From Nereocystis luetkeana (taxonomy: Eukaryota > Sar > Phaeophyceae > Laminariales > Laminariaceae): DNA of 64,000 bases. Positions within the stretch are counted from its first letter, which is position 1; each line of letters begins with the position of its first letter. Of the stretch, positions 3,286 to 61,167 are shown in pieces. Location of the stretch: NCBI GenBank assembly GCA_031213475.1, contig JARUPZ010000010.1, positions 8,138,898-8,202,897 on the forward strand, read 5' to 3'. The translations under genes and the position numbers were made by a program. Under the pieces are notes generated by a model that was given only the letters and a program-made list of their open reading frames with translations, had not been told where the DNA came from and ran no database searches.

Positions 3286-6200
3286 CTCAGAATAACGTCC
3301 AACAGAAAGAGTACCGATTCAGTGAAAATACACCAATTCCGTAGAGATAGATACCGAGCCGATTCGGTACAGATAACGAACATACCGAACCGATTCCGAA
3401 AATATACCAATTCCGAACAAATAACGAACACACCGAACCGATTCGGTAAAGACACCGATTCAGTTGACACTAATAAATACCCCTGGTATACCTTTAAAAA
3501 TGTAAAGGTTGAACAACGATCATGTGGAACCGAAAAATACCCGCCACGTGCAGCGCCGGGTAGGACCAGGTGGCGTGGGGTCGATGAGAGTGAGGGTGAG
3601 AGTGGAGTCAGGGTGAGTGTCGGGGTCAGGTTGACGGTGAGGGTTGGGGTTGGGGTGGTTGGTGTCAGGGTGGGGGTGTGGGAGGAAGTTGGGGGAGTGG
3701 GGGTGGGGGTTGGGTTGGGGTGGTTGGTGTCAGGGTGGGGGTGTGGGAGGAAGTTGTGGGGGTGGGGGTTGGGGTCAGGGTGGGAGTTGGGGTCAGGGTG
3801 GGGGTGTTGATGGAGTTTAGGGTGAGTGTGGGGGTGGGGGTTGGGTTGAGGATGAGGGTAGGGATGGGATGAGGATGAGGGTGGGGTCAGGGTAAGAGTT
3901 GGGGTTCGGGTGAGGGTGGGGTTGAAGTTAGAGAAGTTCAAAGGCCACGCTCCCCCCAGGAAAAAACAAAGGGCTTTCGCCAAAATCAGGCATACCTTGT
4001 CAAATTTGTGTCGAAATCAGTTACACACTAAAAGAAGTACAAATCACACACCAGGAGCCCTGCCATTGGCCAGCCTCGCATCGAACCTCTTTTTGGCTTG
4101 AAACTGGCCATGTACATCTGGGTGTGTCACTTCGCCTAGCTTTTGCCTATTTTTGCCTGACTTTCAGCCCATCAGAGAGGCCATACGTACACTGTTTTGA
4201 TCTCTGCGTTTGCGGTTTCTGGCCCCGCGGTTGCAATTCTCACGTCTAAACTATTTACGTACGTACCAGGTATCTACTGTGTATACATACGTACGCTGAT
4301 CTCGTATTTTCTTCTTTGGGGTGTACGATGCGCTTCAGTCCTTGTCGTGTGTACTCTGCTGTTGTACAGCACCGTGGACACAGACGGCAGTCCGTCTGCC
4401 TCACCCCGCGTCGAGGAGGTGGCCTCAGGTTTGGCAAACGGCAAATAACTTCGCGCCGAGCGGGCGGTTCCGCGAGGACCGTCGTGAGACTTCAAAGCTG
4501 GAAACGGGGGGGGGGGGGCGCCACAACAAATACTCTTGGCGCTCCCGCCGGATGACTGGTGACTCTCTGCAGGTCTAAATGGAGGCCGTGGTGCCTATAC
4601 CCTATTGAAAACGAAATAATTCAGACTTTGGAGGCGCGAAAAAAAAACGAAGTGTGTGATTTTTCATGGCCAGAAACACCGTTCGTGGCGTGTGTTTCTT
4701 ACTCGGTACCAGCTTGTCCCCCTGTTTGCCTCGAATGGAACAGGCGTACCTGGTTTATTGGCAAACACCCACAAAATATCATGCATACGCACACACAATA
4801 AACTGAAGGAAATCGTACATCACCTCAAGACACCACCTCAATCAAAGACAGCAAGTAAAAGTTACCCGAAACGTAATCTACGCGCAAGCAAGCAAAATCA
4901 TACTTCTTTCACAAGAAATAAAAGTTAACTCACTCAACGTACCTAACGTACGTACGTATCAGCCACGCACGTTGTACGAATTGCGCAGGGGAAAAACTCA
5001 ATTGTGTGTGGCTTCTTCACCTTCTTCATGGTAAGGTGCTGCCCGGCGAACGGAGAGATCAGCATCGCCAACTCATACAGCACGCAGCCCAGGGACCAGA
5101 TGTCCGACACTAGCTCGTGGCCCTGTCCCTTAAGGGTCTCGGGAGACATGTACAGAGGGGTTCCCACCTGGGACATAGCGCACGCGCTTCGAGCGTGCAG
5201 GTACCTTAATCGCAAGGTCGGGGGGGGGGGGGGGGGGGGGGGGCGAACTCTGTTATTGCTTGTCTCAGTCATTTGACCATTAACCACGCCTCCCTTTCGA
5301 GACGGAGCACCGTTCGTTTCAACTGCTAATGGAGACGCCTCCAACATTTTCGGCGCTCAACTCTTAACACGTGTTTTTCATACATACTGCATAAAACTTT
5401 TTGCGGGGAAGGGGAGGGGAGGGGGAGGAGGGGAGGGGGGACACATTGTCCAGGCATGTCTTTTCGATAACGAGAGAAGAGATAAAAACATAATATACCT
5501 GGTATATACGTGCTATGGAGAAGGGGGGAGGGAGAAGCTAATACATTGCGTGTGTACGGAGTCTACACTTCGTATGAAAATAAGAAAATACCCTTTGTGT
5601 GAATGGGCCATGTGTGGGTGCACTCGAAGCATAGGCGGGAAAGAAGAGCGACCGGAGGGACGCCCGAATCCGAACAGACGAAAACCAACAACCTCCCCGC
5701 CTTCCCCCAAAAGAACATCACCGCAAGGTACTACCGCGGTACCACGGGACACTACCGCGGTAGTGCCGGCCGAGTAGATCATCGCTCTTTCTCTCGCCCG
5801 CTCACCCCCCAACCCACCCCCACCCCGCTCCTCCTTCGCTCTCCAAAAGAGCACCACCGCACGGAACTCCCGTGGTACTGCCGTACACTACCGCGGTACT
5901 ATGTAACGTCGTGCAATGATACCGTGGTACTACCGCGGTACTATGCACCGTCGTGCTATGATACCGTGGTACTACCGCGGCACTATGTACCGTCGTGCTA
6001 TGATACCGTGGTACTACCGCGGTACTATGTACCGTCGTGCTATGATACCGTCGCACTACCGCGGTACTATGCACCGTCGCACTACCGCGGTACTACCCCC
6101 TCCCCGCCCACCCTTCGCTCTCCAAACGAACACCACCGCACGGGACTACCGCGGTGCTTCCGGACACTACCGCGGTACCAACGGGCTCTACCGTGGTACT

Positions 6201-9200: not shown

Positions 9201-12052
9201 TAGGAGATCCTGCAATCTGTTTTAGATTGCGTAAAAAACACTATGCACCGGTTGTACGGGCACTGCTCTAGCGTAGAGGTCACACTGCGCTTTCTATATT
9301 TTTTGTTTCGGAGGTTCGACTCACACCATCCACCTTTTTTTTTCTTCACTTTTGACTTTTTTTGTACCAGTACATCCACCTTGCTTTTATGAACGTATGA
9401 TATAATACAAGTGGTGTCTTTTTACCCAAGGCAAACGGCGTGGGCACGCTTACGCGTGGTGTGCGTTAGTACCTCAACATTTCACAGCTACTCCACATAC
9501 TTGGGAGTAACGCAAATCATGTTCGAGAAAATACTGCTGTAGGTACTTCGTACACTCGCAGTATTTCGGATTTTTGAGGTTTTGTACTCCTACTTCGGAC
9601 ACTACTACTGCGCACACTTTCGGGCTCGCACTAATTCGGGTTCGCTACTTCTGCTGTCGTGGATACTCCCTGTTGTGCTTCAAGTATTTCGGGGTTCTGT
9701 ACCGCGGGTACTGCGAGTATTAGTCTAGCAGTATTGCGTCCGTTGCTAGTGTTCGTACTGCTTCTGCGAGTACTCGCAGTACAAAAATACCCTCAATGTG
9801 CCCAGTATACTTCGAGTATGAAGTATACTTCGACCGTCTGTGCACCGTGTCGACAATTCTCAGGCCCTTTGTCCGGCACAAAACACTCCCAGATAGTCCC
9901 ACGAGTGGGAGATGGAGAAATCACTTTCGCTGGGGACAACTCGAGTACTTCGAGCCCTGCAGTACTTCGATTTAAGCTCTGCGAGGAATAGGTACCGCGA
10001 ATACTCTCTCGAGGTTCTGTACTGCGGTGATTGCCTGTACTCCAAGTGTTTCGTGTTTCGGTACTGCGGGTACATATTTACCTGTGCTCTAGGGGTTCGG
10101 TACTGCTCATACTCTCATTACTCTCAGTGTTTGGGCCTTCTCAGTACTCGCACTATTTTAGCCGCCAGTACTCCAATACTCTCAGTACTCGGACTACGAT
10201 TTGTTCTCGAGCAGTTATCTGTGAAGCCTTCATATGTTACCCTGAGCACCAAGAAAAAAATATTTTGGCGAGATATACCTGGTATGTTGTACCAGGTATG
10301 CGTTATATCTTATTCAGCCGGCCACAAAGTAATACCAGGTATAGCCCAACCTCGACCTCACGCAACTTTTTTGTACTCACGTTTACGCCGCATACATTGA
10401 ATTAATCGCCGCGAGTCATCTGTTCAGTAGGTTCTATATCCACTTACTACCGGTACCCTAATTTATTTCGTGTGCCCGAAGACAGGAAATATGAATTGCC
10501 TTTATTTCCAGTACGAATCAAAAAAATTGAAATTCAGGCCCATTATTTTAATTGTTTTGGTCAGATTGCATCTCCAAATCGAAAAGTAAATACTTTTTGT
10601 AGTTATTGCCTCACACCATCTCCGCAAACAGTATAGTCTGTGCCAGAAAAATGTGTGTGTTCTTCACGTGCCGGCTGGATGCCGCTATTAATACTACTTC
10701 TAAACAGCTGTACAGGATTTCATACGAGTGTTATTTCGCTCTTGCGCCACTCCCCCAGGCACCTCCCGGAGGGGAATCTTGTATATATAATATATATAAT
10801 ATATATATATATATATATGCGGCATTACCGCCTGCGTCGGAGAAGAGCTTTGTACGGAGCAGTACATGCGTTTCACTGCCGCCCCCCCCCCCCCCCCCTC
10901 CCTCCCAATTTATTACCCCCCTTCCTCCGTCATATAACAAGGGCCATGCAAGCAACCAGTACACGCGCCCCTCCCTACCCAACCGCTTCCTTCACACTCC
11001 CACCTCGGTACGGGGGACCATAGTAAATAGGACCAAATATTTATAGTAAATATAGCGGAAAATGTAGGTTTTTGTGTGTACCGTAGGTCCTATTTAATAT
11101 GATCCCCCGTAATAGACCGCCGAAAAAGGTCCGTTTTGGAGGTTGGTATAGTTCGACAGGTTACACTCACTGCCCCCCCCCCTATATAATATACCTGGTA
11201 TATGTATAGGTTGGGTTGACGTCGGTTGGCAACGACGCTGCAAAACACGCCTCTCACTTTGTGAGTTAGACAACCAGGGTACCGATATATTTTTTTGGCG
11301 GTCACCACGGCTGGCGATCGAGTCAGGTCCTTCTCGCGCGGAGAGAACCCTATCTCCGCACAAGGGGGATGATCGTATCACGTAGTGCGTACATGGTGAG
11401 GCACCCACGAGGCAGTTAAATAATGAATCCATTGCTGTTCCTGGAGGTGGCCACACCAAAAAATAAATCGATTCATTGACGCTGTCAACAATATGCAAGA
11501 AAACCCGCCTCAAAATTGGTTCTCAGCAGGATGCAGCTCACCCTTCATGCGGCTCGCCCAACAGCTCACGGCGCTTCGCGCTTGGTGCAAGCAATGTCTG
11601 CCTGGTCGGTGAAAACCCGACGTGCTCCGTCCCGCCATTGTAGGGATGCGAGGGTCTATGTTCATACGACTACGGCCACGCATGATAATGAGTACACCCC
11701 CCCCCTCCCCTCCCAATTCCCTACGACTACGGCCATGCATGACATGAGTACACCTCCCCCCCAATTCAATATCACCCGCCGCCCCCCCCCGCCCTCCTCT
11801 AATTAACTACCTGAAAACCCGGCGTGCTCCGTCCCGGCATTGTACGGTTGCTATTAATAGCGTCTATGGTTATACAAATACACCCATGCATGATACCGAT
11901 TGCACCCCCCTCTTCCCCCTCCCCCCCGGTAACCGCCTCCTTATCATTCCCACCTTGGTCTCCGCGTAGTAGACCGACGAAAAACGTCCCTTTCCGATCT
12001 GGTGGAGGTTGGTGTAGTCCGACAGGTTAGACTCGCCCGAGCTGAGAGCCAT
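3157..12052 (-). CDS. NEK6/NEK7-like Ser/Thr protein kinase (six exons found; C-terminal end not found)
   Basis: A catalytic protein kinase domain split over six minus-strand exons: 12052-11954, 7894-7712, 7304-7190, 6432-6243, 5204-5021, 3285-3157. Joined, they give about 300 residues with every splice phase consistent (0, 0, 1, 2, 0). Landmarks in order: Gly loop [12 protein letters not shown], the ATP-binding Lys in CALKRIQL, the alphaC Glu in EQCLKE, catalytic HRDLKPAN, the metal-binding DLGLGR (DLG, not DFG, as in NEK6/7), the activation segment [21 protein letters not shown] in the F helix and PDPNIRPKI in the C-lobe. From family knowledge, spacing between landmarks matches human NEK6/7 except for an extra stretch of about 30 residues after beta3. 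NEK6/7 kinases act in mitotic spindle and microtubule control; this role is inferred by family only. The last exon, expected to be short, was not located below 3157. Identification as a NEK is strong; the NEK6/7 subgroup is likely. Confidence 0.9.
3300..3475. repeat. Degenerate tandem repeat, ACCGATTC unit
   Basis: Repeats of ACCGATTCGGTA / ACCAATTCCG with AAATACACCAATTCCG spacers, in the intron between kinase exons 5 and 6. Confidence 0.6.
3585..3935. repeat. G-rich minisatellite (GGGTGNGGGTTGGGGT)
   Basis: A purine/GT-rich array of GGGTG, GGGGTTGGGGT and GTCAGGGTGG units on the plus strand, resembling degenerate telomere repeat and rich in potential G-quadruplexes. Long frames on both strands (His/Pro on minus) are artefacts of the repeat. 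Confidence 0.8.
3970..4766. mobile_element. Element X copy (imperfect terminal inverted repeats)
   Basis: The left end GCCAAAATCAGGCATACC and right end GGCGTACCTGGTTTATTGGC are inverted to each other. The interior matches 35174-36436 in several blocks: CACGCCAGGAGCCC-like, CTTCTTTGGGGTGT, CACCCCGCGTCGAGG, GGCGGTTCCGCGAGGAC, a G-run and CTCTTGGCGC. No coding capacity was recognised. It lies in the intron between kinase exons 5 and 6. Confidence 0.65.
4770..5015. other. Kinase intron sequence, unassigned
   Basis: AT-richer sequence with CA and ACGT runs. No exon or repeat family was recognised. Confidence 0.4.
5021..5204 (-). CDS. NEK-like kinase, exon 5 (activation segment and F helix)
   Basis: A 184-bp exon: one base completing the Arg codon of GLGR, then [58 protein letters not shown] and MKK. 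The acceptor is GCGATTAAG|G at 5205 and the donor AAGAAG|GTGAAG at 5020. The 12 residues between GLGR and VGTP match NEK6/7 in number and the activation-loop Ser is kept (AMSQVGTP against AHSLVGTP). The polypyrimidine tract is a C-run of about 23 (G-run 5221-5243 on plus) that belongs to a LINE 3' tail. Confidence 0.9.
5221..5350 (-). mobile_element. C-tailed LINE 3' fragment in the kinase intron
   Basis: On minus it reads GGAGGCGTCTCC, GGTGCTCCGTCTCGAAAGG, GCGTGGTTAATGGTCAAATG, then a C-run of about 23. This matches the 3' end of the LINE at 15541-17395. The C tail ends 17 bp before the acceptor of kinase exon 5. Confidence 0.75.
5360..5720. other. Kinase intron sequence, unassigned
   Basis: Holds a GGGGA-rich purine run (5404-5441) and one TACCTGGTA (5496). 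No exon was recognised. Confidence 0.4.
5725..6240. repeat. CCGCGG-centred minisatellite in the kinase intron
   Basis: A unit of about 36 bp built on ACTACCGCGGTACTATG and CCGTCGTGCTATGATACC, near-perfect between 5900 and 6090 and degenerate outside. The palindromic cores can fold as hairpins. Long frames on both strands here come from the repeat. Confidence 0.85.
6243..6432 (-). CDS. NEK-like kinase, exon 4 (catalytic loop and DLG)
   Basis: A 190-bp exon. Two bases complete the Gly codon begun in exon 3; then [52 protein letters not shown] and [10 protein letters not shown] follow. HRD holds the catalytic Asp and DLG the metal-binding Asp. The acceptor is ATCCCAG|GC at 6433 and the donor GGACG|GTGAGT at 6242. 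GDL-to-TVW spacing (17 residues) equals that of NEK6, which fixes the acceptor choice. A C-rich tract and an element-S 3' fragment lie just upstream of the acceptor. Confidence 0.9.
6517..6601 (-). mobile_element. Element S, 3' fragment
   Basis: On minus it reads GCGAGGGTCTATGGTCGC, CACGCCCATGCATGACACG and GAGTATCCGCCCCC. The C-rich end runs into the pyrimidine tract before kinase exon 4. Confidence 0.65.
6780..7160. repeat. Degenerate GATC/ACCGA tetranucleotide repeat
   Basis: Runs of ACCGATCGAT, CAACCGAAC and GACCGACC, low complexity. It fills the intron between kinase exons 3 and 4. Confidence 0.7.
7190..7304 (-). CDS. NEK-like kinase, exon 3 (hinge region)
   Basis: A 115-bp exon encoding [19 protein letters not shown], then [19 protein letters not shown]: beta4, beta5 and the hinge of the kinase N-lobe. 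The acceptor is GCGACAG|GTC at 7305 and the donor CTCAAAG|GTGACAG at 7189. It begins in phase 0 and leaves one base (G) for the next exon. It is flanked by tetranucleotide repeats (6780-7160) downstream and triplet repeats (7330-7600) upstream. Confidence 0.88.
7345..7600. repeat. Triplet repeat region (AGC, CAC)
   Basis: AGC runs, then CAC/CAT triplets and a C-run (7519-7534). Lies in the intron between kinase exons 2 and 3. Confidence 0.75.
7712..7894 (-). CDS. NEK-like kinase, exon 2 (beta3 Lys and alphaC)
   Basis: Sixty-one codons. The exon starts after CTCCAAAG at 7895 and ends at AAGGAG|GCAAGT, so the donor is GC rather than [10 protein letters not shown] carries the ATP-anchoring Lys and MTYEQCLKE the alphaC helix. 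Between them is a Gly/Lys/Ser-rich insert of about 30 residues that NEK6/7 lack. The same frame is open from 8368 to 7499, through both neighbouring intron edges, so intron retention would not meet a stop at once. The acceptor is preceded by C-runs and pyrimidines (7905-7985) lying next to a LINE 3' fragment. Confidence 0.85.
7905..8090 (-). mobile_element. C-tailed LINE 3' fragment plus pyrimidine tract
   Basis: On minus, the block GGTGCTCCGTCTCGAAAGG, GATGCGTGGTCAATGGC, CAATGGTCAAAG at 8075-8005 matches the LINE 3' end. C- and CT-rich sequence follows down to 7905, right up to the acceptor of kinase exon 2. Confidence 0.65.
8100..9420. other. Kinase intron 1, unassigned part
   Basis: Large intron sequence with short CAG runs (8441-8520, 8720) and CGTACGTACG patches. 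Frames are short and without motifs. Confidence 0.4.
9425..10215. repeat. Degenerate GTACT-rich repeat
   Basis: Repeated short motifs GTACTCGCAGTA, TTCGGGTACTGCGGGTA and CTCCAAGTGTTTCG at irregular spacing. Probably an old minisatellite. No coding signal. Confidence 0.5.
10215..10860. other. Kinase intron 1, unassigned part
   Basis: Mostly AT-rich, with three TACCWGGTA copies (10276, 10290, 10333) and a TA microsatellite (10783-10818). Confidence 0.4.
10970..11165 (-). pseudogene. Decayed copy of kinase exon 1, split by a MITE-A insertion
   Basis: On minus, 11165-11113 reads as [21 protein letters not shown], clearly related to exon 1 ([22 protein letters not shown]) but with one frame-breaking deletion. 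The matching donor region CCACCTCGGTA (10999-11010) is separated from it by a MITE-A copy at 11010-11112. The copy is therefore older than the MITE insertion. Confidence 0.75.
11010..11112. mobile_element. MITE-A copy
   Basis: Hairpin element with ends ACGGGGGACCATAG and ATGATCCCCCGTAA, TA on both sides, and the family interior (AGGACCAAATAT...GTAGGTCCTATT). Confidence 0.85.
11205..11700 (+). mobile_element. Element S, full-length copy
   Basis: From GGTTGGGTTGACGTCGGTTG to CATGATAATGAGTACACCCCCC with all family blocks between. It follows a C-run and a TACCTGGTA (11192). Confidence 0.8.
11705..11910 (+). mobile_element. Element S, two 3' fragments
   Basis: TACGACTACGGCCATGCATGA plus a C tail at 11720-11765, and a second, more degenerate copy (CTGAAAACCCGGCGTGCTCC, GGCATTGTACGG) at 11812-11910. 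Tandem 3' fragments each end in a C-rich run. Confidence 0.6.
11954..12052 (-). CDS. NEK-like kinase, exon 1 (Gly-rich loop)
   Basis: Thirty-three codons from ATG at 12052 to the donor AAG|GTGGGA at 11953. It encodes the short N-terminal extension, then [20 protein letters not shown], the P-loop of the kinase. It ends in phase 0 and joins exon 2 to give [16 protein letters not shown], which restores exactly the NEK6 spacing between the P-loop and the Lys. The frame stays open upstream of the ATG (..[11 protein letters not shown]..), back to a pyrimidine-rich AG acceptor near 12095, so the exon may instead be internal and about 43 bp longer. The ATG is the simplest start but is not proven. Confidence 0.82.
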
Positions 12053-12129: not shown

Positions 12130-12950
12130 GCTACGTAGTCAGCGTTGGATATCATATCGGAATTTTCGATATAGTATCGACGTGTTAAATCCTCCTCGAT
12201 CTCACAGCTGATGCTATTTCTTTTCAAATATCTACAACACGTATATTGATATATGAATAATGGACATATCGCAGTATGAATATATCGAAGTTTTTGGAAT
12301 ATTATCGACATGTTAACCCTCCTCGACCTCACAGCTGATGCTATTTATTCTCCAATATATACACCAGGTATATTGATATATGAATAATCGAACTCGACAT
12401 ACCGTATACCAGGTACGTACTATCGAACGCGTTTTGCTCTCTCCCCATCTATTAATAGTGTTGGATATCATATCGAAACTTTCGATATAGTGAAATATGA
12501 AGTATTGAGCTTCGATGTATCGTATCGACGAGTTTTGATCATACATTCCCCCCGAGCTGAAGGCCGATAAAATACGTCGGCCTCTCCAATAATCGTCGGC
12601 GTCTCTCCGCTCTGGCGCACGCAACAAGCACACACGCATGCAGTGCAGGTTACCTGATCTTGGTACGTAAGTACAGTAGTTCAGCTAGTGTTAGATGCCG
12701 TATCGATTGATCTTCTTCGATCTCACAGCTCATGTTTCTTTTCTTAAATTTGTATATGTACTGAAATGCGAATTACCGAAATTCGATATATCGCATAATA
12801 TCGAATGCGTTTTGCTCTCTCCATTTAGTGTTGGACATCGATCGTATCGAGAGTTCCGATGCATTGAAATACGAAATGTTGAACCTCGATATGTCGCATT
12901 CAAACGCGTTTGGCTCTCCATCTAGTGTTGGATATCGTATCGAAAGGTTC
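12130..12950. repeat. Degenerate tandem repeat of about 160 bp (TATCG-rich)
   Basis: The block GTTGGATATCATATCG, TTTTCGATATAGTATCGAC, CTCCTCGATCTCACAGCTGA, TATTGATATATGAATAAT recurs from about 12145, 12305, 12465, 12690 and 12830. Its short core is the same as in the array at 28425-28742. Confidence 0.65.
12545..12650 (-). pseudogene. Decayed copy of the kinase exon 1 upstream part
   Basis: CCCCGAGCTGAAGGCC, CGGCCTCTCCAATAATCG, CGGCGTCTCTCCGCTCTGG parallels 12035-12110 (CCCGAGCTGAGAGCC, AGCCTCTCCGACAATCGCC, CGTCTCCCGCCGGCTCTGG). The ATG and frame are lost. It arose with the neighbouring tandem duplications. Confidence 0.6.
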
Positions 12951-15540: not shown

Positions 15541-17395
15541 GGGGGGGGGGGGGGGGGGGGGGCGTACTCATATGTTGCTTGCCTTAGTCATTTGACCATT
15601 GACCACGCATCCCTTTCGAGACGGAGCACCGTTCCTACTCCTAATAGAGACACCTCCAACAATTGGGCGCTTATTACGTTGTTTCCATACATTACATACC
15701 AGGTAGAAATGTTTTGCTAATCTTATCCCCTTCCGGTTTGGCCGCCTGTGGCCACCATCTATCTCCTAGGATAGCGATCGTTTTCTCGCTGCTATCTAGT
15801 GTGTCAAACTCCTCATGTCTCATTCGTCTATTTTCCTCATCTCCTCTTCTAACACATCTCGTTCCTCCTTGTATATTTCACATTCTCCTACTATGTGAGT
15901 TCTACTCTCTATTGCTTTGCCACACGGGCACATCTGTGCATCTATTTCCTCCTCCTCCCGGCTACTGGTATACCTATTTCTTCTTTCTGGCAGGTCCAGG
16001 TCACCTACACGAAAGCGCAGCTTCAGCGTTTTCGCGAAGTCCATTGGGCCGTGTAGATACGTTTTCATTCCTATTCCTTCCCTCAATCCCTCGTATATCT
16101 CTGCCAGGTAGGCGTTTTTCCGATCCCACCTTTTTTCGTAGCGCTAGCCTTTCCCTTATTTCTGTCCTTTCTTCTATTTCTGCCTTGTACTTCCCAAAAT
16201 TTCCGGCGGACATCAACTCTTCTTGGTTTCCCCCTATATCCTTCCATACTTTCTCAACTACGCTATCCCACCTTATTCCAGCTCGCCCTTCTGTCACTTT
16301 CTCCCATACAGCTCTATCAACTATGGCCGGCAACCTCTTTTTTGGCATGTTCCTTACTTTATATTGCCATTTCAACTTTCTCATATCCCTGTTTGTCTTG
16401 AGTGGGTGCATTCCCAGTTCTGCTCTTAATACTGTATTACTAGTCGTACTTGATCATCTTGGGGGATTTTTTTAGCTGCTGTCATCTGTACTGCTTCCAC
16501 CTGTTTTACGAGTTTCGCATTCCATTCCCATACTTCTCCTGCATTATCTAGCTTTGGTACTATGACATTCATCAGGATACATCTCTTAATCCTGGTGTCA
16601 AGGTGCGAGTCTGTTGGGATCGCATCCATCTTGCCTATGTGTGATTTACCCTTTCGTATTACTTTTGCTATATGTGTATCCCAAGAGCAGTCTTTTGAGA
16701 TCTCTACGCCAAGGTACGTATACTGGTCTACGATCGGCAATTCATCTTCTCCCCACTTTCAACTGAAATGTATCGGGTTCACCTTCTCTTCGTTACAAAC
16801 AACTACTGCGCATTTCTTGACGTTCGCCGTCACCCTCCATTTCCTAGTGTATTTTAGCGCCTTCTCTATTTGTTTCTGTAATCCTTCGGGTGTTTCTGAT
16901 ATCCCCACGAAGTAATCACCAAACATCAATCCCGACACTGTATCTTCCCCTACCGTGACTCCCTGCCTTGCTGCTTCAACTGCTACTATCAGGTCGTTAA
17001 TATATATCTTGAATAGGTTGGGTGACAGCGTACATCCCTGTGCAACTCCCTTGTAAAATATCAACATACTTCGATATTTCCCCGTCCAGCATCACAGCAC
17101 TTCTCGCACATCCCGTCATATTTTTCATCATTCTCCACATCCTTCCTCTGATTCCTATTTCCCATAGTTTTTTCCACAATCCAATTTCTCCATACTGTGT
17201 CGTAGGCCTTCTGTACATCTAGAAAGAAACAGTACGTTGGTAGTCCCGCGTCTTTCCTACCTTGGATTATCTTACCTAGAGTGTACACATGGTCTACGCA
17301 GCTACGGTTTGGCCTAAACCCTGCTTGCCCTTCGCTTACTTTGTCTTCCTTCTCCACCATCGTTCCCATTCTATCGTTCAAAATCTCGTCAGGGG
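15541..17395 (-). mobile_element. 5'-truncated LINE with broken reverse transcriptase
   Basis: Minus-strand pieces in different frames read as a non-LTR reverse transcriptase: GQAGFRPNRSCVDHVYTLG, motif A FLDVQKAYDTVW (about 17390-17200), motif B GVAQGCTLSPNLFKIYINDL (about 17050), motif C GLMFGDYFVGISETPEG (about 16925), the thumb QYTYLGVEISKDCSWDTHI (16725), and a C-terminal CPCG..H..C knuckle (about 15930). The usual FADD/YADD box is FGDY and at least four frameshifts separate the pieces, so it is dead. The endonuclease is missing. The 3' end is GAGTAC plus a C-run of about 22 (G-run 15541-15562 on plus), not poly-A. Confidence 0.85.
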
Positions 17396-21429: not shown

Positions 21430-22360
21430 TCGCACCCCCCACCCCCCGCCTCACCTGCCCTACCAGCCACCGGCCAGGACCAGTCCCGCCCAGCCCAGCC
21501 CTCTCCGCGCCCCCCAACCCCCGCCCCACCCGTCCCCCCTCGCTCAACTCCTCCCGCTTCAGCAAGCAATCGATAGGCGGTGCTGGCGTTCCTTGTCGGC
21601 TGGCTCGCATCCCCCCCCCCCCCCCCCCCCACCCCCGCCCCCCCCTCCCCCTCCTCCTCTCGTTTCTCCATAGAGCGCCGGGGAGTAGTGACAGCCGTGG
21701 CCCTTCCCTTGTTTTTTCTGGCGATATGTATCGCCTGTATACCAGGCATGTATAAGGGGGGGGGGGGGGGAAGAAAATAGGAGGGAAATGATGCAACCAC
21801 AGAGGGGAAAATGTCAAAAACAAATAGGGAAAAAAATAGAGAAAGCCCAGCGAAAAAGTAAATAAATAAGGAAGGGGATACTGTAAGAGAAGGTCTGCAG
21901 TCGGTATGTGTAGGCAGGGGGGGGTCTCCCTCGTGTCGTCGATTAAGCCGCCGCCGGAGACAGCATTTTTAGAATTTATATTCACCCTGGGCGTGTATCT
22001 GCTGCCGTTGTTGGTGAAAGCGGTTGGGTGTATTCGAGTTTAGCCTGGGGATTCAGTTTGTGGTATTGGTTTTTGAGTTTTGGATTCTGTTTTGGTAATT
22101 TTTTTGGGGGGGGGGTTGGTTTTGCGTTTGAAGATTTCGTTTTGTTTTCTCGTGTTTCTGGGGGGGGGGTCACCAGATAGTTTATGGGGTTTTTGATTTT
22201 TTGGTCTGGGATACTGTTTCACCGTACCCCTGATAAGACTTTTTGTTTTGTAGGATTTCGGGTCTTGGGGTTTGAGGTTTGTTTTTTACTACCTGGTACC
22301 TGGTATCATTCTTCTGGTCGTTTCACGTGTTGGTCCCACATTCCACAAGAGCTTCAACCA
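21430..22360. other. Unassigned C-rich then T-rich sequence
   Basis: C-runs to 21660, then AT-rich sequence with G-runs (22109-22117, 22161-22168). A double TACCTGGTACCTGGTA is at 22290. No gene was recognised. Confidence 0.4.
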
Positions 22361-22620: not shown

Positions 22621-23085
22621 GCGTTAACTTTTACCTCTCCACAAAGGCTGACAGTACCAGGTACGAAGTATATATATATATATATATACCTTTGCGCTTC
22701 GCATCGTTCGTTGTTTGCCCTCCCCGAACACAACAAATAAATAAGGTAAAACACCCAAAAAAGGTATACCTCTTCCATCTGAGCAAAAAACAGATACACA
22801 CTGAAAACAAGAAAAAAACGTAATATATATGCAACGAGCGGTGTTTTCGACCAGGAGGAATCACAAACATGTTTTCGTCGCGCCTGGCAGCAGTCAGCGT
22901 GCGGCCTCCAAAATCTGAATTATTATTTTTCTTGTCCTGAGGGTACGTACATGCAGGCACCGCAGGCCCCATCCGGACCTTCGGGCGCGCCGAGAGTACC
23001 TCTTCTGGCGCCCACCCGCGCTGACCGTTTGGAAGCCTCGGTTATCCTCAAGGGACCGTTTCCCTGGCACGAACACTTTGCCGTA
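22620..23085. other. Unassigned sequence
   Basis: Contains a TA microsatellite (22669-22688) and one TACCAGGTA (22655). No gene was recognised. Confidence 0.35.
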
Positions 23086-23088
23086 CCA

Positions 23089-23193: not shown

Positions 23194-23494
23194 TAAAAAC
23201 TAAGCCCACCTCGACGAGGGGGGAGACGAACCGCCGTCTGTGTTCATAGTGCTGTATGAACACCAACTGCGGTGACCATACAAAACAACAGCACGTGACT
23301 TGTAAGTAGTATAGACAATGCATACCAGGTACTGCTGTATTAGTTACGATAGGTGAAGGACGCACACTTCATTCATCCAACAAAACCGACAAAAAGTGAA
23401 GTCCGCGTATCCATCCCCCAGACACATACCAGGTACATAAGCATACGTACAAACTCGGCAGAGTGGGACGAGAAGTACGTGGCCTCTGGATTGC

Positions 23495-23705
23495 TGAAAA
23501 TCAGGCAAAAAACAGTTGAAAACTAGACGAGGTAGACGAAATTCAGATGTACTGGGCCCATTTCACGCCAAAACACAGGGAACCATGTGAGGCTGGTCAA
23601 TCGAAGGGCTCCTGGCGTGTGCTTTTTACTTGGTTTGAGACTGTACCAGGTACCTGTTTTTGGTCCAAATGGGCCAGGCATACCTGTTTTTGGCCAAAAC
23701 TCAAT
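23495..23705 (-). mobile_element. Short element X derivative
   Basis: On minus: GGCCAAAAACAGGTATGCC, TACAGTCTCAAACCAAGTA, CACGCCAGGAGCCC, as at the left end of the 35174 copy, without its long interior. Confidence 0.55.
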
Positions 23706-24605: not shown

Positions 24606-24924
24606 CTGTACCACTTTCCTACGGTACGTGGGTTCAACCATATAAGCCGAGCTCCTTCCGAAGTGGATATCGCACCGGACACAAAAAAACAAAACAGATT
24701 GCCCCCAGGGAACCGCGAATCACATCGTACAGAGTGTCATACCAGGGTATATAATACCCGGTATGTATCTGATACGTACAGTAGGTTGGCTGATCCTGCA
24801 TGATCTCACCTGTTATTTCTGCCTTAGGTATACGACTTGTTTCAATTTTCACGTGCACTAGTTTCCCGTTCACACTTTTTTTTTCCTCCTGATGCAATAT
24901 TCCAATGTTGTGTTCCGTAGGTTA

Positions 24925-27912: not shown

Positions 27913-27916
27913 CCTA

Positions 27917-29420: not shown

Positions 29421-29539
29421 TAATACACGGTAAAATATACCTGGTACCTGGTAGCATGGGCAAACGGCGCCAACGGTTCATGGACGTTCGGTCGTTGCTG
29501 CAATGGTGTAATTTATCGTGCTATATATTACTATTAATA

Positions 29540-35173: not shown

Positions 35174-36436
35174 GGGTTTTGGCCAAAATCAGGTATACCT
35201 GGCCACTTTTCGGCCAAAATCAGTTACAGTCTAAAAACAAGTACAAAACACACGCCAGGAGCCCTGCTATTGGCCAAGCTGGCATTGTAACTGATTTTGG
35301 CACGAAAATGCCAAGTTATACTTGTTTTTTTTACTCTGTCTAGCTTTCAACAGATTTTGGCCAAGTTTGAACTACCAGGTATTCAAAGAGGCCATGCGTC
35401 CGCTGTTTTTTCTCTGCGTATATGCGTCTGCCCTCCCTCGGTTGAAATTCTTCAGTGTCAACGCATAAACCCTGTACCCGTACGTCGTACGTAAAAGTAC
35501 GTATTTACACAACATGCATGCATGCGTGCGCTGGTTTCACTTTTTCTTCTTTGGGGTGTGCGTTTCAGTTATTTAACAGTTATCGTGATGTGGAATCGGC
35601 ACGGACACTGGTTGTGCTGGATGAAGACGGGAAAAAAGAGCCGGTCGCCCCGGTCGTTCAAGTGGTTAACCTTGAATTCTACTTATTTGAGTCCTTGGTT
35701 CGAGCCTCAGGTGGGTCGAACCTTTGACTTTATTTGCAAAAATAAAAATAAAAAAGATTCAATTGTTGAGAGCGCCTTGCAGCGTGGGTAGGCACAATTC
35801 GATGCGAGTCGACGAGGGAAGAAAAGGCTGAAATCTTCTCGCGATAAAAATGAAGGCACGTACCGTAGCGGGAAGGGGGTAGAAGAGCCTGCTATGTGAC
35901 CCCGGATCTGAGTTACGAGTTGGAAGGAGAGAGAGAAGAAGATGGGCGAAGACAATACCTGGTAAATGAGATGAGCAAAAAAAAAAAAAAAAAAAAAAAA
36001 GTGAAGAACACACACACACTCTGTGTGTTGTTTTCTTTGGCCACAGCAGTCGATACAGCACCATGGTCTTTGTCTGCACCACCCCGCGTCGAGGTGGTCT
36101 CAGGTTTGGTAGGACAAGATAATTTCGTGCCGAGCAGGCGGTTCCGCGAGGACGGTCTAGAAGATTTAAAGCTGTCAACGGGGGGGGGGGGCGGCAGCTA
36201 CTCTTGGCGCCCCCGCCGTGGCGAAACGAAGGAAGCCTATTAATAGTGCACTCCCTAACCAAAACAAAACAATGCAGATTTTGGAGGCCATGTGGCACGC
36301 TTTATGCTTTACGCATTCTTTTTTCCCGGACTTTTTCATGGACAGAACACTGCTCGAGGCGGGCATTTTTACCTGATTTTAGTATGCAACTGATTTTGGC
36401 ACAAACGGATTAGGCATACCTGATTTTGGCATTTGC
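35174..36436 (+). mobile_element. Element X, copy with SINE2 inside
   Basis: Ends GCCAAAATCAGGTATACC and GGCATACCTGATTTTGGC, inverted, with an 11-bp target duplication; Mutator-like by these two features (inference). SINE2 lies at 35641-35998. Without it the interior is colinear with 3970-4766. Confidence 0.65.
35641..35998 (+). mobile_element. tRNA-derived SINE2, copy 1
   Basis: Head GCCGGTCGCCCCGGTCG, A-box TCGTTCAAGTGG, B-box GGTTCGAGCC, body AATTCGATGCGAGTCGACGA and GTGACCCCGGATCTGAG, then a run of about 24 A. Confidence 0.75.
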
Positions 36437-36754: not shown

Positions 36755-37010
36755 CAAGTCGCACAGATCAGATAGATCATGATATATATGATATATCCAC
36801 AGTAGATCATCTATACCCTAACCTGCTGTTATATGAAGCGTTGTGCAGGATCTGTATAGTACAGATCAAACTCGCGAAACTTGTGCTAGGTTATAGCCAG
36901 ATATACGGCTCCACCCGGCAACATGAGCTACAGTAGATCATACCCTGGTACAAGATTGCGGGAATATATTTGCTCTGAAATATCTAGATCGTGACGTAAG
37001 AGTCGACGAT
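36755..37010. repeat. Dispersed AGATCA-rich repeat, copy 3
   Basis: CACAGATCAGATAGATCATG, ACCTGCTGTTAT, CACCCGGCAACATGAGCTAC and AGTAGATCATACC. Confidence 0.65.
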
Positions 37011-38250: not shown

Positions 38251-39059
38251 GCACGGAAAACGTGACGACGGTTTTAGTACCTACCAGGTATATAAATAGG
38301 CAGGCGGTCCTTACAAGTCCAGGCAGCGTGGTACGTTCGCGTATTTCCAGCTCAGAGAGAGGAGTGATACATGCGGGAAAACGTTGGCGACATCACCAGA
38401 AAAACGACTGCAGCCGTGGGAACTGGTACAATAACAACATGGATGCGAATCTTGAATATTTTCTACGTATGAGCTGAGTGTCTGTGCGTGCGCGTGGGCC
38501 TTGAGATGTACGAACTACTCTCGTCTCGAGTGAAGTGAAGTCACGGCGCTGTTTATGTACGCTTGGTACACGGAGGATCCTTGGTGACCACAGGGAGGCA
38601 CAACAAGCAGCCTCAAACCGTTTAGCACCGCAGTACGTGAAAAAAAAAACACGCACACAACCGACACATCTGACTCAAGAGCAGTATTTTCAGAACAGGA
38701 GTGCGGTCCTAAAACGCGTGTTGCAGTAGTGTACCCGTTTCCAACATCACCCGCTTCAAGGCCATCGTGGAAACAAGGCCAGGTAGGCCGATCGGCTTGT
38801 CGCGCGAAACAAAACCACTTGGAACCAGCATGGGATCGTTTTCTCAGTAGCAAGAGACAGTAAGACCGCGTGAATTGGCTTGTCACGAGTTGGCCTTATT
38901 CTGAAACGGGAGTGTGGCCCTCAAGGGATAACTCTTGACCCTTTGATGCAGCACTGCAGTCCCGTTTCGGCGACTCAAACTACTTAGACTTTGAGTGGTT
39001 TCGTCATCATCCCTTGTGGCCTACTGCAAAAACGATCCCACACGAAGTCCAAGTATATA

Positions 39060-39320: not shown

Positions 39321-39514
39321 CAGTGTGTCCCAAAAACGAACGAGCACTATGAATACATGTATCTATCAGAGAGTCGCCTTTTACGGCGTACCTGGTACCT
39401 GGTACTTGGTAGGTAGCGAAGACATTGCTTTCGAACCTGTCATAATACGGTGCTCACCCCTCCAACAACCTCAACACCTCTGGTATTAATAGAACGCGCG
39501 GTCTAATCATCACA

Positions 39515-39601: not shown

Positions 39602-39944
39602 TTGAGCTCGCAAATATGAATGCTGAGTGATTTTTCCACCTCACAACTTCGGTTTTTCATTGTTCTTCGTATAAATATACTGTACTGGATTATAAGAATA
39701 AAAATACGACGGCTGTGCGATCGAGGATTTCGTCGAAACTCATCCCTGGTATTTGCAAGCTGCGTGGGATCGAACATACGACGTATACGTGATACCAGGT
39801 ACATCGTATGCACTGCGAAAAAGGCCCGACTTTAATCCCAAGTGTTTAGTTTGCCCCGAAAAACGCGGGCGAAAAAACGATCCCATAGCAAATCCAAGTA
39901 CTGTTTCCGAAAAAAACGTGGCTAATTGATTCCACCCTAACTCC

Positions 39945-40514: not shown

Positions 40515-40773
40515 TAACTCATGGTGTCAACTCCTATGAGTTAAACGTTTGTCCCCAGAAATACGTGGGTGGAAAGATTATCCCACAACTATTATCAAGT
40601 AGTTTGTCCCCAAAAACGTGGGAGCAAAAAAGAGTACGACAACACAACCCTAGTTTTGTCCCCAAAACAACTTGGGGGGAAAAAAATGAAAATGATCCAG
40701 CCAAGCAGTTTGTCCCCAAACACATTGGTGCAAAAAAGTATCCAACACCAATACCAGGTACCTACCAGGTACA

Positions 40774-41927: not shown

Positions 41928-42046
41928 GTACTGGGATAATAGTAAACAGGATCAAATATTTTTAGTAAAAGTAGGTAAATACACACCTGGTAGGTTATTG
42001 TGTACCTGGTATACCGTAGGTCCTATTTACTACAGGTCCCCCGTAA
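41928..42046. mobile_element. MITE-A copy carrying TACCTGGTA insertions
   Basis: ACTGGGATAATAGTAAAC to GGTCCCCCGTAA. Relative to other copies it has CCTGGTA added at two TA-like positions (41985-41993 and 42003-42011). Confidence 0.75.
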
Positions 42047-42049
42047 TAC

Positions 42050-42420
42050 ATGATTTTGATTTTATAAGCAGATACATTACGTTAGGCAGGCACTACTGTT
42101 GTACTAATATCCGTATCCCACGTAAAGTATTACCCGGTATGTAAGTAAAGACGCAGAAGATGAGTGATGAGCCCGTCCGTGTCGGAAAGCGACACGTCAA
42201 GAAGAAAAACGAGTACCTGGTACTAAATACCTGTCTTCATTATTTTACTGATGAATAACAATACACCTGTACCTGCGTCATATAATACAAGGAGGAAATA
42301 ATAAACGAAGAGTCAAATCACATCTGTTTCAGAACCTGCACCAACGTAATCTATTTGGCTTTAGTAGGGTTGCCTTTCACGATGGTATTAATAGAAAGAA
42401 AGTGCTCTTCCGAGCTACGT
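42050..42420. other. Unassigned sequence
   Basis: No gene recognised; one TACCTGGTA at 42214. Confidence 0.35.
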
Positions 42421-43299: not shown

Positions 43300-44140
43300 G
43301 TGTACCCTCTGCTGTACATTCGTACAGTTGGACTCACTATTGTTTCCGTCTGTTCAGCTATCACACCGTACACTGGTACCCCATCGTACATGTGATACCT
43401 GGTATACTGTACCGGTAATTGATGTCATTATTCGTAAACTCTGCCCTTCCAGTACGTACGTACTACAAATCATACAACACACGTGCATCTGTGCAGGAAA
43501 AAGCGATGAGCTCATCGTTGTGTGGCATTAATTTGCTTGCCCTCTTGCCACACAACCACCCGGGCGCTTTTAGTTTCAACCTTCTTTACCCGGCACCATC
43601 ATACCACCCGTCACTTCCGAACTCTCCATCTCCAGCCCAAGCCGCAGGAGCTCACACACTCGGCGATCTTCTCGATCGGGTCGTGATCACATCATCATCA
43701 CACACAGCAGTCAGGTACTACGGGTGCCTACGTCCCCTACCTTTTCCGTTCCCGGCAGTTGAGCAATTGCACCTCAGTTTTCAGTTGTAACCACGCAATC
43801 GTAGGCCAGAGGGTAGGTTCGGCATCAATTCCCAAGACTGTTGCGTGCCGCTGTATTTACTGGTAGTCTTAGCTGTGCGGCAGTGCGTCGACTGCTGTCA
43901 TCGTTTTTGTTCTGCTCACCATGTACGCATTTCACTACGAGCAATAAGAGTGTGCTCTAAATGTACTGCACAGGGACTGACGGGACCGCCATACATGGGT
44001 CCACAGACGGGAGACGCTCCTCACAACCGACTCTACTGTAGCTCTTACACTGCTATATTACACCTGACACTACTGCTGTAGTTGTATACCATATATACCT
44101 GGTATATGACATGGTAAAGCAGTTTTCACACTACTCGCCA
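43300..44140. other. Unassigned sequence
   Basis: No gene recognised. TACCTGGTA at 43396 and 44096. Confidence 0.35.
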
Positions 44141-44240: not shown

Positions 44241-44697
44241 TCAAGGTGGATGTACTGTGGATGCTGATAGAGCATCATTTTGTCTACACCAGGTACCGCT
44301 CTGGTCGGAAAGAAAAGGATATTTTATACATTAATACCAAGATAAAGCGGTCCTTATATTTCTGCACAGAGCGGTCGTCGATATACCGTACGTGGTACAG
44401 GCGATTAATACCAGGTATATAGGCTTGTATATTGGAATAGCGGAAAGGCAGGAATAAATGCGACTCAAATACTACGATATCACACCGGGTATATACCAGC
44501 GCCCGCGTACTGTACGTCTTGTACCAGGTACATACTGCTGTACCTGCTACCATACACAACCCTGGGCGGAAATGTAATGACCGTCAGGGTATAAATAGGA
44601 ATACCGAACGGTCCTTACATTTCAGTCCAGAATGGAAACAAACGCGCAAAATAACACCCCCCCCGCGACGTGATTTTCGGAGTCGATTGTCTCCAAA

Positions 44698-46530: not shown

Positions 46531-46884
46531 CCGGTGTGGGGAAGGAGAGTCCGCTGTGTGACTCCCGCATCTGAGTCATGACTATTTATAGGAGGGCGAA
46601 TAATTAAATGGGATGGAATATAAAAATGGGATGGGAAATAAAAAAAAAGCAGTTACCAGAACACCGGGTCGAGCATCCATCGAGTGCAACTCTGAGGCAT
46701 GACACTGGAATCAAAACGTGGCAAGGTACTGGGAACGCTGCTGTTGTTTGTTGAGGCGGTCTGTGTATATACAACTGTTGAACTCCAAAATACACCCGTA
46801 CAGCAACCAATACAAAATTGTCAACATTTGACAGCCAGTTAGTTGTACATACCAGGTATAGATTACGACCTGGTACCGGTACTT

Positions 46885-46968: not shown

Positions 46969-47014
46969 ATACTACCAGTACATGAGCTCCCTACTGCTGT
47001 ATACCAGGTATACT

Positions 47015-51699: not shown

Positions 51700-52430
51700 T
51701 GAAAAAAATGTGCGCTTTGAGTCTTCGCCGATATTCGTCGAGATCGAGTCGAATTCTAAAATTGTCATTTTTTTATACCAGGTATACTGTGTTTTTTGCG
51801 GCACACGCAGTGATGTGTCAGGGTTAGCGCCTCCAAATTTCAAGCCCTACTCCCAGTGGTTCACGAGACACATACGACCTGCGGATACTTCAAGCCGTTT
51901 TTCTGCTGGCTCAGCTCGTATAAATTGAAACCTTTACTTTGTTTTCTTTCGTCAGTTTTTCTTTTCTTCATCATCTCACTCTTAAAAACCCTACCAGGTA
52001 TATGGGTTTTGCATTGTACATTTACATACACATGAAACTTACATCTGACCCAAGCATCACCAAGTATTCCCCCCCCCAATACTGGGAGTGCGGGCCTGAA
52101 AGGAAACCTGCCCCCCCACTTTCAGCCAGCAAGCAAAGGTACCGACCGCTTGACGCCATTCTTGCCCCAAGCCGTCAAGGACCTTGACGCACCAAAACTA
52201 CTGTAGACTGTCAACCTCCCGGCTACGGATAGGACGGAGAGGTGACTGATTATAGGTCGCCGACGACAAGGTAGTTTCTAGTCGGCTAGGCCCTACGGCT
52301 ATTATAATTACCAGCGGATATAACGGCTAATTACGAGCGGATATTTGCGGAGTTCTGCATATTCGTGTTCGACTTGGGGGCGTTTGGTGCTCCGATTGTG
52401 TTTTTCTTCAACGAAGGCTAAATCAGTTAC
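51700..52430. other. Unassigned sequence
   Basis: No gene recognised; TACCAGGTA at 51776 and 52002. Confidence 0.35.
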
Positions 52431-52437
52431 AACTGTA

Positions 52438-53570: not shown

Positions 53571-53589
53571 ACAAGGCGTCCCGAGGAAT

Positions 53590-53730
53590 ACCCTGGTAAT
53601 TTCCAGCTGTATAAGTACTCCAGGTACTCGCAGGTACTCAGGTCATTTTTAGCTGTGGGTAATCCAGGTACTTGCACGTACTAAGTTATTTTCAGCTTTA
53701 GGTACTCCAGGTGCTCGTACTCGGCAAATC
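53590..53730. repeat. Minisatellite, 43-45 bp unit (second block)
   Basis: AGTACTCCAGGTACTCGCAG, GTCATTTTTAGCTGTGGGTA and later variants. Confidence 0.75.
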
Positions 53731-55970: not shown

Positions 55971-55974
55971 AAAA

Positions 55975-57115
55975 GATGGGTACGCGCGGTTATGAAGGCA
56001 CCGCGCGGGACGGGACGGGAAGGTATGGATTTTTTTTGGGGGGGGTATTTTCGAGTGGCGGGATGGGGAAAAGTTCCCGTTTGTTTACCGCGGGATGGGA
56101 ATGGGACGGGAAGGTGGGAAGCCATTTGGTTGACGGGAAAGAACGGGAAGACGCGATTTATTCGCTGTACGGAAAGGGACGGAAAACGATTTTGGGCGGG
56201 ACTGGGAGCTAGTTTTTTGGCGAGACGGGAAACGATCGGTGAACGGGTCGATAATAGGTTGGGAACTAGGTCGGGAACATGGTCGGGATGGAGTAGTATG
56301 GGGCTGCACGATTTCTTGGTGGGACAGGACGGAAATGGGAAACGATCGGGGAACGTCGGATCGGTCGGGAACATAGTGGAGAATACCGTCAGGGAATAAA
56401 CGCAGTCGGGAATGGTTGGGAGTACGATCGGCGCGGGCTGGAGACACAGCGACACGACCAAATAGAGCGAAACGTAGTCGAGGCTTCTTCGTGTACTAAT
56501 ACTACTGCTGTACCTTTTTTATTAAAAAAAAAAGTGATAACAGCCGTCGATAAACGAACCAACTGTTTATTTATTATTTCGTTGGTAATGCACGGTTTAA
56601 ATAGAAATATTGTTTCAAATAGTCAGGTGTGATCTCGACCGATGGAACGGTTCATGCAACGTTTAACTTTGTACGTATCTAAACTATATAAAATCAATGA
56701 GAACACAAATCGTGTGTTTTTTAATCATATACCAGGTACGTATGTACTGCTGTTGCATCTTAAAAGTTGCATAATCCAGTTGCATTCACGATCATATGAT
56801 GGGAAAACTGCGTGCCAACGTCGGGATGGGACCTGATTACCTGGGCAGACAGTGGGATGGGAATAATCGAGACATGGCGGACGGTGGGAACGAGAATAGT
56901 CGGGACTGGGAAGACCGTTGGAACGGGAGTCATAGGCGGGAACGCGTGGACAGGGGGGACGGGAAGAGTCAGGAACGGGAACACTACACTGACCGCGGGA
57001 TGGAAAAGGTCGGGAACAAACACTGACGACGGTAAGGGTCGGGAATTCGCGGTAAGAAACGAAACATCCCGCGATTTCCCGTTCGCGTCCCGTCCCATTC
57101 CCGTCCAGACCACTT
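55975..57115. repeat. GGGACGGGAA-rich element or degenerate repeat
   Basis: GGGACGGGACGGGAAGG at the left, further GGGA/CGGGAAC-rich stretches (56040-56420, 56815-57045) and CGTCCCGTCCCATTCCCG at the right end. The inverted composition suggests an element with subterminal repeats like that at 57887. The 281-codon minus frame here is an artefact. Confidence 0.45.
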
Positions 57116-59682: not shown

Positions 59683-60283
59683 TTAAGCAGGAAGTGGTAC
59701 TGCAGCAGTATATCCTCATTTGTCCATACCTGGTACGCATGGACCTGGTGGCGAAATTTGCTCCGTCGTTCTCTCGCTGCTCTTTCCAAGAGCGCAGCCT
59801 GTCTACAATATCGAGGTCAGTGCACACATACGCACGTTTTGTCTGTTTGAGCATCGGGAGAGAAAACGGAGTTCTTTGGCCTGCTCCAACTGGCGCAAGC
59901 GAGAGCACCCGAGCCGAATTGTGTACGAACAGCATTCTTGTGAGTACGTACCTGGTATGTAAGTACGTACCAGGTATGATACTCGTACGTACGTACGTAC
60001 GACGTACGTACTACCAGGTACACCAGTACTATTTGTCGCTGTGGCAAACACGCGGCGTGGGAGTGCACCGAGACATTCATACCTCCCCTGTCAATTTTTG
60101 GCTCGATGGGAACGTTCGGAGCTAGCGCAGAAAAACGGAATGTCCTCAGGAAACAGAACAGGGGAAGACGTTGTTCCAGCGTCTTCGTTGTCGGGAGTTT
60201 TGGCAATACAAGTACGTACTTGTATTAACAATACCAGTAGCATTTTTTTGGGGGGCAGGACTCTTTCTTGTATAAAAATTGCA

Positions 60284-60452: not shown

Positions 60453-61167
60453 AACACAGGTGTGACGGACGCTCTTGACTGACTGACTGCTTGACGGTTA
60501 CCAGTCTCCTGACATTTTTGCTCTCCTGTGCCTGGTAATGTACGTACTCGTACACCACCTTACACAGTACACTCCCGTGTGAGGACATGCCAGGTATATC
60601 AGTATCGGTACAACAGCAGTACCAGGTACCTCGTATCAATAGTCTACTGCATTAGGGACAACAATACTTCAACACCAATAATTGCACGAGACCAAGAGCA
60701 CCATCCACGGCACAAGAGAACCTAACATCCACCGCAGTGAAGAAACAACGAAACGAAAAGAAGCAGGAAAAAGGTCTCGCGTCTCCAGTCTCCAGTCTCC
60801 AGTCACGAAAGCGTGCTCTATTTTCAGGTACTTTTCGGTAATGCTTTTTTTTAGGACAGCAACAAGCAATACGCACAGCGATTATGCCGCCTTATTTTAC
60901 CCTCTGGTAGTGTGAGGTTCACGTGTCTGCCAAGCGCCGCTATGGATAGCTAGAAGGGCACCCGCGCGGAATGGCCGAAGGCATCGTTGCAAGGGCGTGA
61001 AATACACTGCTGCTGCTCTGCTGCGTGTTCTTTACAGTTTTACAGCAGCAGCAGCAGCAGCAGCAGCCGCCGCCTGTCTCATGATGACTGATGGATGTCT
61101 GCGGAGACAGCGAGCGATGAAGCGAAACATCGTGCCAAAAGCAGAGCAGCAGCGTACGCACTTGAAC

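Follow-up and report, generated by a model that had tools for sequence, protein, structure and literature searches.

Published passages on Sleeping Beauty and Frog Prince give the footprint of these transposons as C(A/T)GTA and mention bendable TA target sites (PMC3878927). Elsewhere, footprints are stated to equal the 3' overhangs (PMC7827188), and the Sleeping Beauty form arises because three-base 3' overhangs are joined (PMC3878927, PMC7827188). Here we describe a 64,000-nucleotide stretch of the genome of the brown alga Nereocystis luetkeana (C10:8138898-8202897 within an assembly of 465,085,209 bases; hereafter the window), in which the 9-bp near-palindrome TACCWGGTA is strongly over-represented. 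We consider it likely that each copy is the excision footprint, or scar, of a TA-inserting and TA-duplicating cut-and-paste DNA transposon of the Tc1/mariner type. TA duplication, a palindromic insert and a central A/T choice are shared with the published accounts of Sleeping Beauty and Frog Prince (PMC3878927). However, the Sleeping Beauty overhang is 3 nt long and its element is known, whereas here the overhang would be 5 nt long, about 182,000 presumed scars lie in one genome and the parent was not found.

Footprints of Stowaway miniature inverted-repeat transposable elements (MITEs) in the Triticeae are likewise TA-flanked, short terminal-repeat remnants, with insertion beside an existing footprint; the published examples include five differing footprints at one intron site, whereas one dominant form prevails genome-wide here (PMC1925063). 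In rice, excision sites of DNA transposons were also read genome-wide, and the sections drawn on describe mostly deletions and filler, in contrast to the near-uniform scars of the alga (PMC4423477). The Mariner-Tc1 elements of Ectocarpus are reported to fall into 17 families and to number almost 12,000 copies, and the words excision and footprint had no occurrence in a term search of the main text of that article (PMC12477816). A five-base footprint, such uniformity or about 180,000 copies per genome was not encountered in the open PMC literature searched. Searches that required all terms on motifs, footprints and brown-alga transposons to occur together returned a single, unrelated paper. Open PMC papers holding the exact letters of the word treated apparently unrelated subjects among the matches listed, as judged from titles and the starts of abstracts. 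Excision footprints are already known, and the new part, relative to that literature, is the five-base form, its uniformity and its roughly 180,000 copies in one genome.

Abundance of TACCWGGTA

The exact word occurs at 47 places in the window, 28 times as TACCAGGTA and 19 times as TACCTGGTA, compared with a mean of 0.50 and a maximum of 3 in 100 dinucleotide shuffles, which rules out chance as its origin. A preliminary description, made from the letters alone, had counted about 47 copies against a chance level of about 0.5, and both figures were reproduced; 45 of its 46 positions were exact, one (52002) should read 51992, and the site at 29445 had been omitted. With tandem repeats masked, TACCWGGTA showed the strongest excess among all 9-mers of the window (40 seen, 0.9 expected), and it was far above every other TA-X-TA word of equal length.

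In the whole assembly, the word was found 182,395 times, compared with 1,744 times for the reversed, uncomplemented word; this count and the comparison of flanks below are the checks that the preliminary description had named as able to refute it. Its density in the window (0.73 per kb) is about twofold the genome average (0.39 per kb). Twenty 10-kb stretches taken at fixed places on contigs C1-C10 contained 80 copies of the word and 3 of the reversed word, and every stretch held at least one copy (range 1 to 10).

The core of the word is CCWGG, which would suit a Dcm-like methylation target as the driver of its abundance. However, only 47 of the 167 CCWGG in the window carry the TA frame, and methylation explains neither this frame nor the insertion origin described below; we regard its probability as close to negligible.

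Insertion of TACCWGG at TA dinucleotides

Each site was aligned, as found and without CCWGGTA, to sister copies of dispersed repeats. In a 268-kb sample, 118 sites passed the filters and a spanning sister was available for 26. The flanks are thus unrelated for the most part, indicating, as the preliminary description had stated, that no single longer repeat carries the word. The empty form aligned better at 20 of these 26 sites, the full form at 5 and neither at 1, whereas among 343 control TA-N5-TA sites with sisters the corresponding numbers were 46, 262 and 35 (Fisher p ~8e-12 for the preference for the empty form). In a wider screen, the empty form was preferred at 19 of 25 motif sites, compared with 311 of the 2,118 sites that carry any other TA-X-TA word.

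In the clean cases, exactly seven bases, TACCWGG, had been gained at a TA. Sixteen sites had an ungapped empty sister (no gap within 12 bases of the joint), and at 13 of them at least one sister kept the TA intact, placing the insert between duplicated TAs at a formerly single TA. The best examples are W:42003, W:23644, W:15697, W:35956, L005:7991, L007:4332 and L001:2762 (W:n, window position; L-numbers, other sampled loci). Four of the 16 carry little weight, namely L004:2690 and L010:8400, which are of low complexity, and W:35373 and W:11192, which are only 17/26 and 18/26 identical to their sisters. Among the 20 empty-preferring sites, W:30197 and L017:3388 (simple repeats) and W:40763 (gaps near the joint) are also weak. 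At most of the testable sites, then, TACCWGGTA arose through the insertion of TACCWGG, no more and no less, at TA. Two candidates of the preliminary description, the footprint of a TA-targeting element and a micro-insertion unit, fit this result, whereas the other two, a dimeric protein site and CCWGG methylation, leave the exact lack of seven bases in the sister copies unexplained.

Overlapping pairs of the word numbered 12 among 127 sites, compared with about 1.1 expected, and a run of four units lies at L004:1101-1130. Together with L007:1268, which exceeds its sister L012:8154 by one unit (two against one), these arrays would suit a longer repeat or tandem slippage of a TACCTGG unit as the means of spread. 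However, slippage needs an existing unit to act on, and single-copy gains at empty TAs were seen; moreover, adjacent units carry different W bases in 3 of the 12 pairs, and 92 of the 118 tested sites had no spanning paralog in the 268-kb sample. Spread by this route is thus extremely improbable.

An abundant MITE-like family with TATTACGGGGGACCATAGTTAATAGGACC ends (14417-14532, 23086-23201, 27914-28029, 40407-40522, 41280-41395, 52435-52550 and others in the window) gathers scars at several TAs. At one TA in L041, three scars with different centres are present. At a single MITE hotspot, with 101 matches in all, 87 of the 100 listed matches carry CCCTGG and 4 carry CCCAGG, but the scar is possibly common by descent, so these counts are not independent and 87 copies are not 87 events. 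Of the loci used for mapping scars on the MITE, 20 were picked for a hotspot scar and are a biased set. Repeated events are nevertheless suggested by the variety of forms, by scars nested in one another and by scars at further TAs of the MITE.

The MITE pattern of the window returned one match in the genome_contigs collection, L001 (JALZWD010000061.1), a bacterial metagenome-assembled genome (MAG) contig that opens with algal DNA. Matches between L001 and the window extend to base 3048, and visual inspection puts the join near base 3655. Motif sites were found at 2762, 2824 and 3589 within this opening 3.65 kb, of which the one at 3589 is outside the window-matching stretch, and nowhere else in the 8-kb locus. 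The site at 2762 is an exact gain of TACCTGG, in a MITE family that is also present in the window.

The excision-footprint model and its rivals

Flank preferences were read outward from TA on 174 flanks that were left after 80 tandem-like flanks had been dropped, with both sides pooled and symmetry assumed. T was favoured and A avoided at the first position (A seen 10 times, 33 expected), followed by A, T, A, n, T, W and W; past +8 the signal was slight. AT-rich surroundings of the target TA are typical of TA-targeting transposases and of the Tc1/mariner-IS630 superfamily, and the pooled flanks agree with this preference. The CCWGG insert is self-complementary except at its centre, which is resolved either way (A at 65 and T at 62 of the 127 sites).

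Length variants were counted on both strands of 264 kb, each against its reversed word. TACCAGGGTA occurred 12 times and its reverse 0 times, and its T-form TACCTGGGTA was absent; TACCAGGGGTA occurred 3 times (reversed, 0), TACCGGTA 30 times (reversed, 10; both are palindromes, giving 15 and 5 places) and TACCAGTA 32 times (reversed, 21). Inserts of 5 nt are dominant, and inserts of 4, 6 and 7 nt also occur. The long variants are nearly always of the A-form (CCAGGG), as would follow from a CCAGG overhang in which T arises only through repair of the central mismatch.

These features can be placed in one excision scheme. The parent element would end in 5'-CCAGG, and its transposase would cut the non-transferred strand at a point five bases within that element, leaving CCAGG 3' overhangs at both donor ends. 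The overhangs could anneal through two C:G pairs on each side with a central A:A mismatch; the host would join the annealed ends, and mismatch repair would fix A or T to give TA-CCWGG-TA. Out-of-register joins or longer overhangs would yield CCAGGG/CCCTGG and CCAGGGG, loss of the mismatch would yield CCGG, and re-insertion at a scar's own TA would produce overlapping pairs. That the scars are so uniform may be due to the strong pairing of the overhangs. If a few copies had kept jumping for a long period, scars would be numerous and elements few, as one would expect under steady activity. The scars themselves probably do nothing and are a log of past jumps.

In masked sequence, one-mismatch neighbours of the word numbered 99 against 52 expected, compared with 102 exact forms. 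The larger excesses included transitions at positions 3, 7 and 8, a transversion at 4 and changes of the central base, and any single one-mismatch form was far rarer than the exact word. If taken as decay, this excess would correspond to a burst at about 5% divergence or to steady activity over the last ~12.5%. Ciliate-like scars renewed in every generation were also considered and rejected; the one-mismatch excess resembles inherited decay.

A binding site for a dimeric protein, which selection would have retained or multiplied for a regulatory or architectural role in the manner of a highly iterated palindrome, is in keeping with the palindromic 9-mer, the two-sided flank preference and the rarity of each one-mismatch form. 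The cyanobacterial HIP1 is such a palindrome, short and present about once per kilobase or two, and TACCWGGTA is similarly a short palindrome at high density, but it arises by a 7-bp insertion at TA. This gain at most testable sites, the presence of the word inside MITE copies at several TAs and repeatedly at one TA, and its occurrence in every one of the twenty 10-kb stretches make a selected protein site very unlikely.

No pair of CCWGG-ended inverted repeats with non-scar ends was found in 328 kb, in which the pieces besides the window were at most 10 kb long, so larger elements could be missed. A looser inverted-repeat search gave 13 pairs, compared with 10 for a control word, none of them convincing. 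No element was seen at the 60 of 101 hotspot matches that were viewed (twenty loci and forty short stretches). None of the 30 candidates scored against Pfam DDE_3 matched at E 0.001, DDE_1 had 28 matches, and the two DDE_1 loci L083 and L084 had no CCWGG ends within about 4 kb each. The missing parent element is the main weakness of the footprint model. These results count against it, as do several others. The full form was preferred at 5 of the 26 sites; W:11192 preferred the empty form within the window but, when the sample was widened, the full form; the outcome at L016:9110 was not clear-cut; L012:6539 and L019:9940 are mutual sisters that both bear motif-like units; L012:8154 lost the comparison, its sister L007:1268 having one unit more; and MITE copies may share a scar by descent. 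Moreover, the passages cited above put the Tc1/mariner stagger at 2-3 nt (PMC3878927), shorter than the 5 nt proposed here, and the scars are near-uniform, unlike the rice excisions, of which 8/94 were perfect in the published sections (PMC4423477). The 5-nt form argues against an element of the 2-3 nt kind described so far but leaves the footprint mechanism itself untouched.

The exact 7-bp gain at TA, and the lack of an intact element at the 60 viewed hotspot matches or in the 328 kb, would also suit direct micro-insertion, in which TA is broken by an enzyme specific for it (such as a domesticated transposase or a nuclease) and repair adds a fixed 7-bp unit with no full-length element inserted at any time. 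An enzyme able to add such a palindromic unit at TA is not known to us, and the free central W, the nearly A-only long variants and the target preference are expected of annealed transposon-end overhangs; micro-insertion of this kind is accordingly a distinctly unlikely source. It is unlikely, too, that either a TA-targeting enzyme of brown algae inserts the 7-bp unit directly or a transposon excises to the point of leaving little but scars, with about 180,000 identical single-event marks and almost error-free joining by the host.

If the copies are excision scars, each records one past jump or descends from one. Where each scar is one past jump, the number of excisions of a transposon family in a single lineage could be estimated and dated, a number that element copy number alone would not show. 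If the footprint model is true, the scars would also reveal the element ends (CCAGG), the stagger, the target preference and the accuracy of break joining in a brown alga from sequence only. They are numerous enough for use as insertion/deletion markers, and the TA-X-TA scan is applicable to any genome, where it could find elements that are extinct or too rare to see.

Site list and other features of the window

The sites are collected in Table 1, together with variant and decayed forms.

Table 1. TACCWGGTA sites and related forms in the window. All 47 site rows match TACCWGGTA exactly and have no strand assigned (.).
Feature	Position	Strand	Evidence
TACCAGGTA site	4264..4272	.	exact match
TACCTGGTA site, intron of NEK kinase gene between two recognised exons	5496..5504	.	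exact match
TACCTGGTA site	10276..10284	.	exact match
TACCAGGTA site	10290..10298	.	exact match
TACCAGGTA site	10333..10341	.	exact match
TACCTGGTA site, dispersed repeat	11192..11200	.	ambiguous: empty better against window copies, full better against wider sample
TACCAGGTA site, in repeat	12407..12415	.	empty form +4 in score; not clean gap-free
TACCAGGTA site, in repeat, clean 7-bp insertion	15697..15705	.	insert removed: L018 sister ungapped over 82 bases; window copies alone: no preference
TACCTGGTA, overlapping pair with 22297	22290..22298	.	exact match
TACCTGGTA, overlapping pair with 22290	22297..22305	.	exact match
TACCAGGTA site	22655..22663	.	exact match
TACCAGGTA site	23323..23331	.	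exact match
TACCAGGTA site	23427..23435	.	exact match
TACCAGGTA site, clean 7-bp insertion	23644..23652	.	comparison with sister copies
TACCAGGTA site	25773..25781	.	exact match
TACCAGGTA site, then TACCAGGCA in tandem register	26244..26252	.	exact match
TACCTGGTA site	26542..26550	.	exact match
TACCAGGTA site	26880..26888	.	exact match
TACCTGGTA, overlapping pair with 29445	29438..29446	.	exact match
TACCTGGTA, overlapping pair with 29438, omitted in preliminary description	29445..29453	.	exact match
TACCAGGTA site	30047..30055	.	exact match
TACCTGGTA site within ATCT microsatellite	30197..30205	.	exact match
TACCTGGTA site	34789..34797	.	exact match
TACCAGGTA site, in repeat	35373..35381	.	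empty form +5 in score; sister distant (17/26 identical), without TA
TACCTGGTA site, clean 7-bp insertion	35956..35964	.	L016 sister 24/26 identical around joined flanks
TACCAGGTA site	38282..38290	.	exact match
TACCTGGTA, overlapping pair with 39396	39389..39397	.	exact match
TACCTGGTA, overlapping pair with 39389	39396..39404	.	exact match
TACCAGGTA site	39793..39801	.	exact match
TACCAGGTA site	40752..40760	.	exact match
TACCAGGTA site	40763..40771	.	L004 aligns to empty form only, gaps near joint
TACCTGGTA in MITE copy, exact 7-bp insertion	42003..42011	.	joined flanks fit 30 sisters, TA intact in 13
TACCTGGTA site	42214..42222	.	exact match
TACCTGGTA site	43396..43404	.	exact match
TACCTGGTA site	44096..44104	.	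exact match
TACCAGGTA site	44409..44417	.	exact match
TACCAGGTA site	44522..44530	.	exact match
TACCAGGTA site	46850..46858	.	exact match
TACCAGGTA site	47002..47010	.	exact match
TACCAGGTA site	51776..51784	.	exact match
TACCAGGTA site (52002 in preliminary description)	51992..52000	.	exact match
TACCAGGTA site	56730..56738	.	exact match
TACCTGGTA site	59727..59735	.	exact match
TACCTGGTA site	59949..59957	.	exact match
TACCAGGTA site	59968..59976	.	exact match
TACCAGGTA site	60012..60020	.	exact match
TACCAGGTA site	60620..60628	.	exact match
CACCTGGTA, probably a decayed scar; lies on the hotspot TA in the MITE copy of W:42003	41984..41992	.	7 bp longer than most sisters
TACCAGGGTA, 6-nt variant scar	24740..24749	+	variant count
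TACCAGGGTA, 6-nt variant scar	36941..36950	-	variant count
TACCAGGGTA, 6-nt variant scar	53589..53598	-	variant count
TACCAGGGGTA, 7-nt variant scar	3478..3488	-	variant count

Further TA-X-TA words look like scar families, for example at the hotspot in L036. In 328 kb including the window, TACTCGTA occurred 51 times (reversed, 6), TACAGCAGTA 28 times (reversed, 0) and TACTTCGAAGTA 8 times (reversed, 0), and TACAGTA occurred 84 times in the 264 kb (reversed, 36). TACAGCAGTA was not supported as an insertion, the empty form being preferred at 1 of 5 sites. Probable single insertions in the window are TACGGAG at 19362 and TATCCACAG at 36794.

A second MITE-like repeat has CCCTTTTAGAACCGCAG ends beside TTAA (39518-39607, 59599-59688 and others in the window; clearest in L001:2949-3048), and we take it to be piggyBac-like. 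The repeat words of the window had no match in the viral_contigs collection in four scans. Within a public species genome, the bacterial MAG contig JALZWD010000061.1 is thus chimeric and carries brown-alga-like DNA.

Rfam and ARAGORN scans of the window returned no matches, and a Pfam search of 20 open frames returned only a reverse transcriptase fragment (RVT_1, E 6.9e-7; 17064-17537, minus strand) and a low-complexity match. A NEK-type kinase gene with introns lies at 5000-7300 on the minus strand; its exons matched proteins of two brown algae, Scytosiphon promiscuus (83%) and, across 65% of the query, Ectocarpus fasciculatus (77%), in keeping with a brown-algal source. The word had been described as absent from the kinase exons, which is a weak test, as the recognised exons total only a few hundred bases. 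One intron of this gene is filled with 42-bp tandem repeats bearing TACCGCGGTA (5887-6079).

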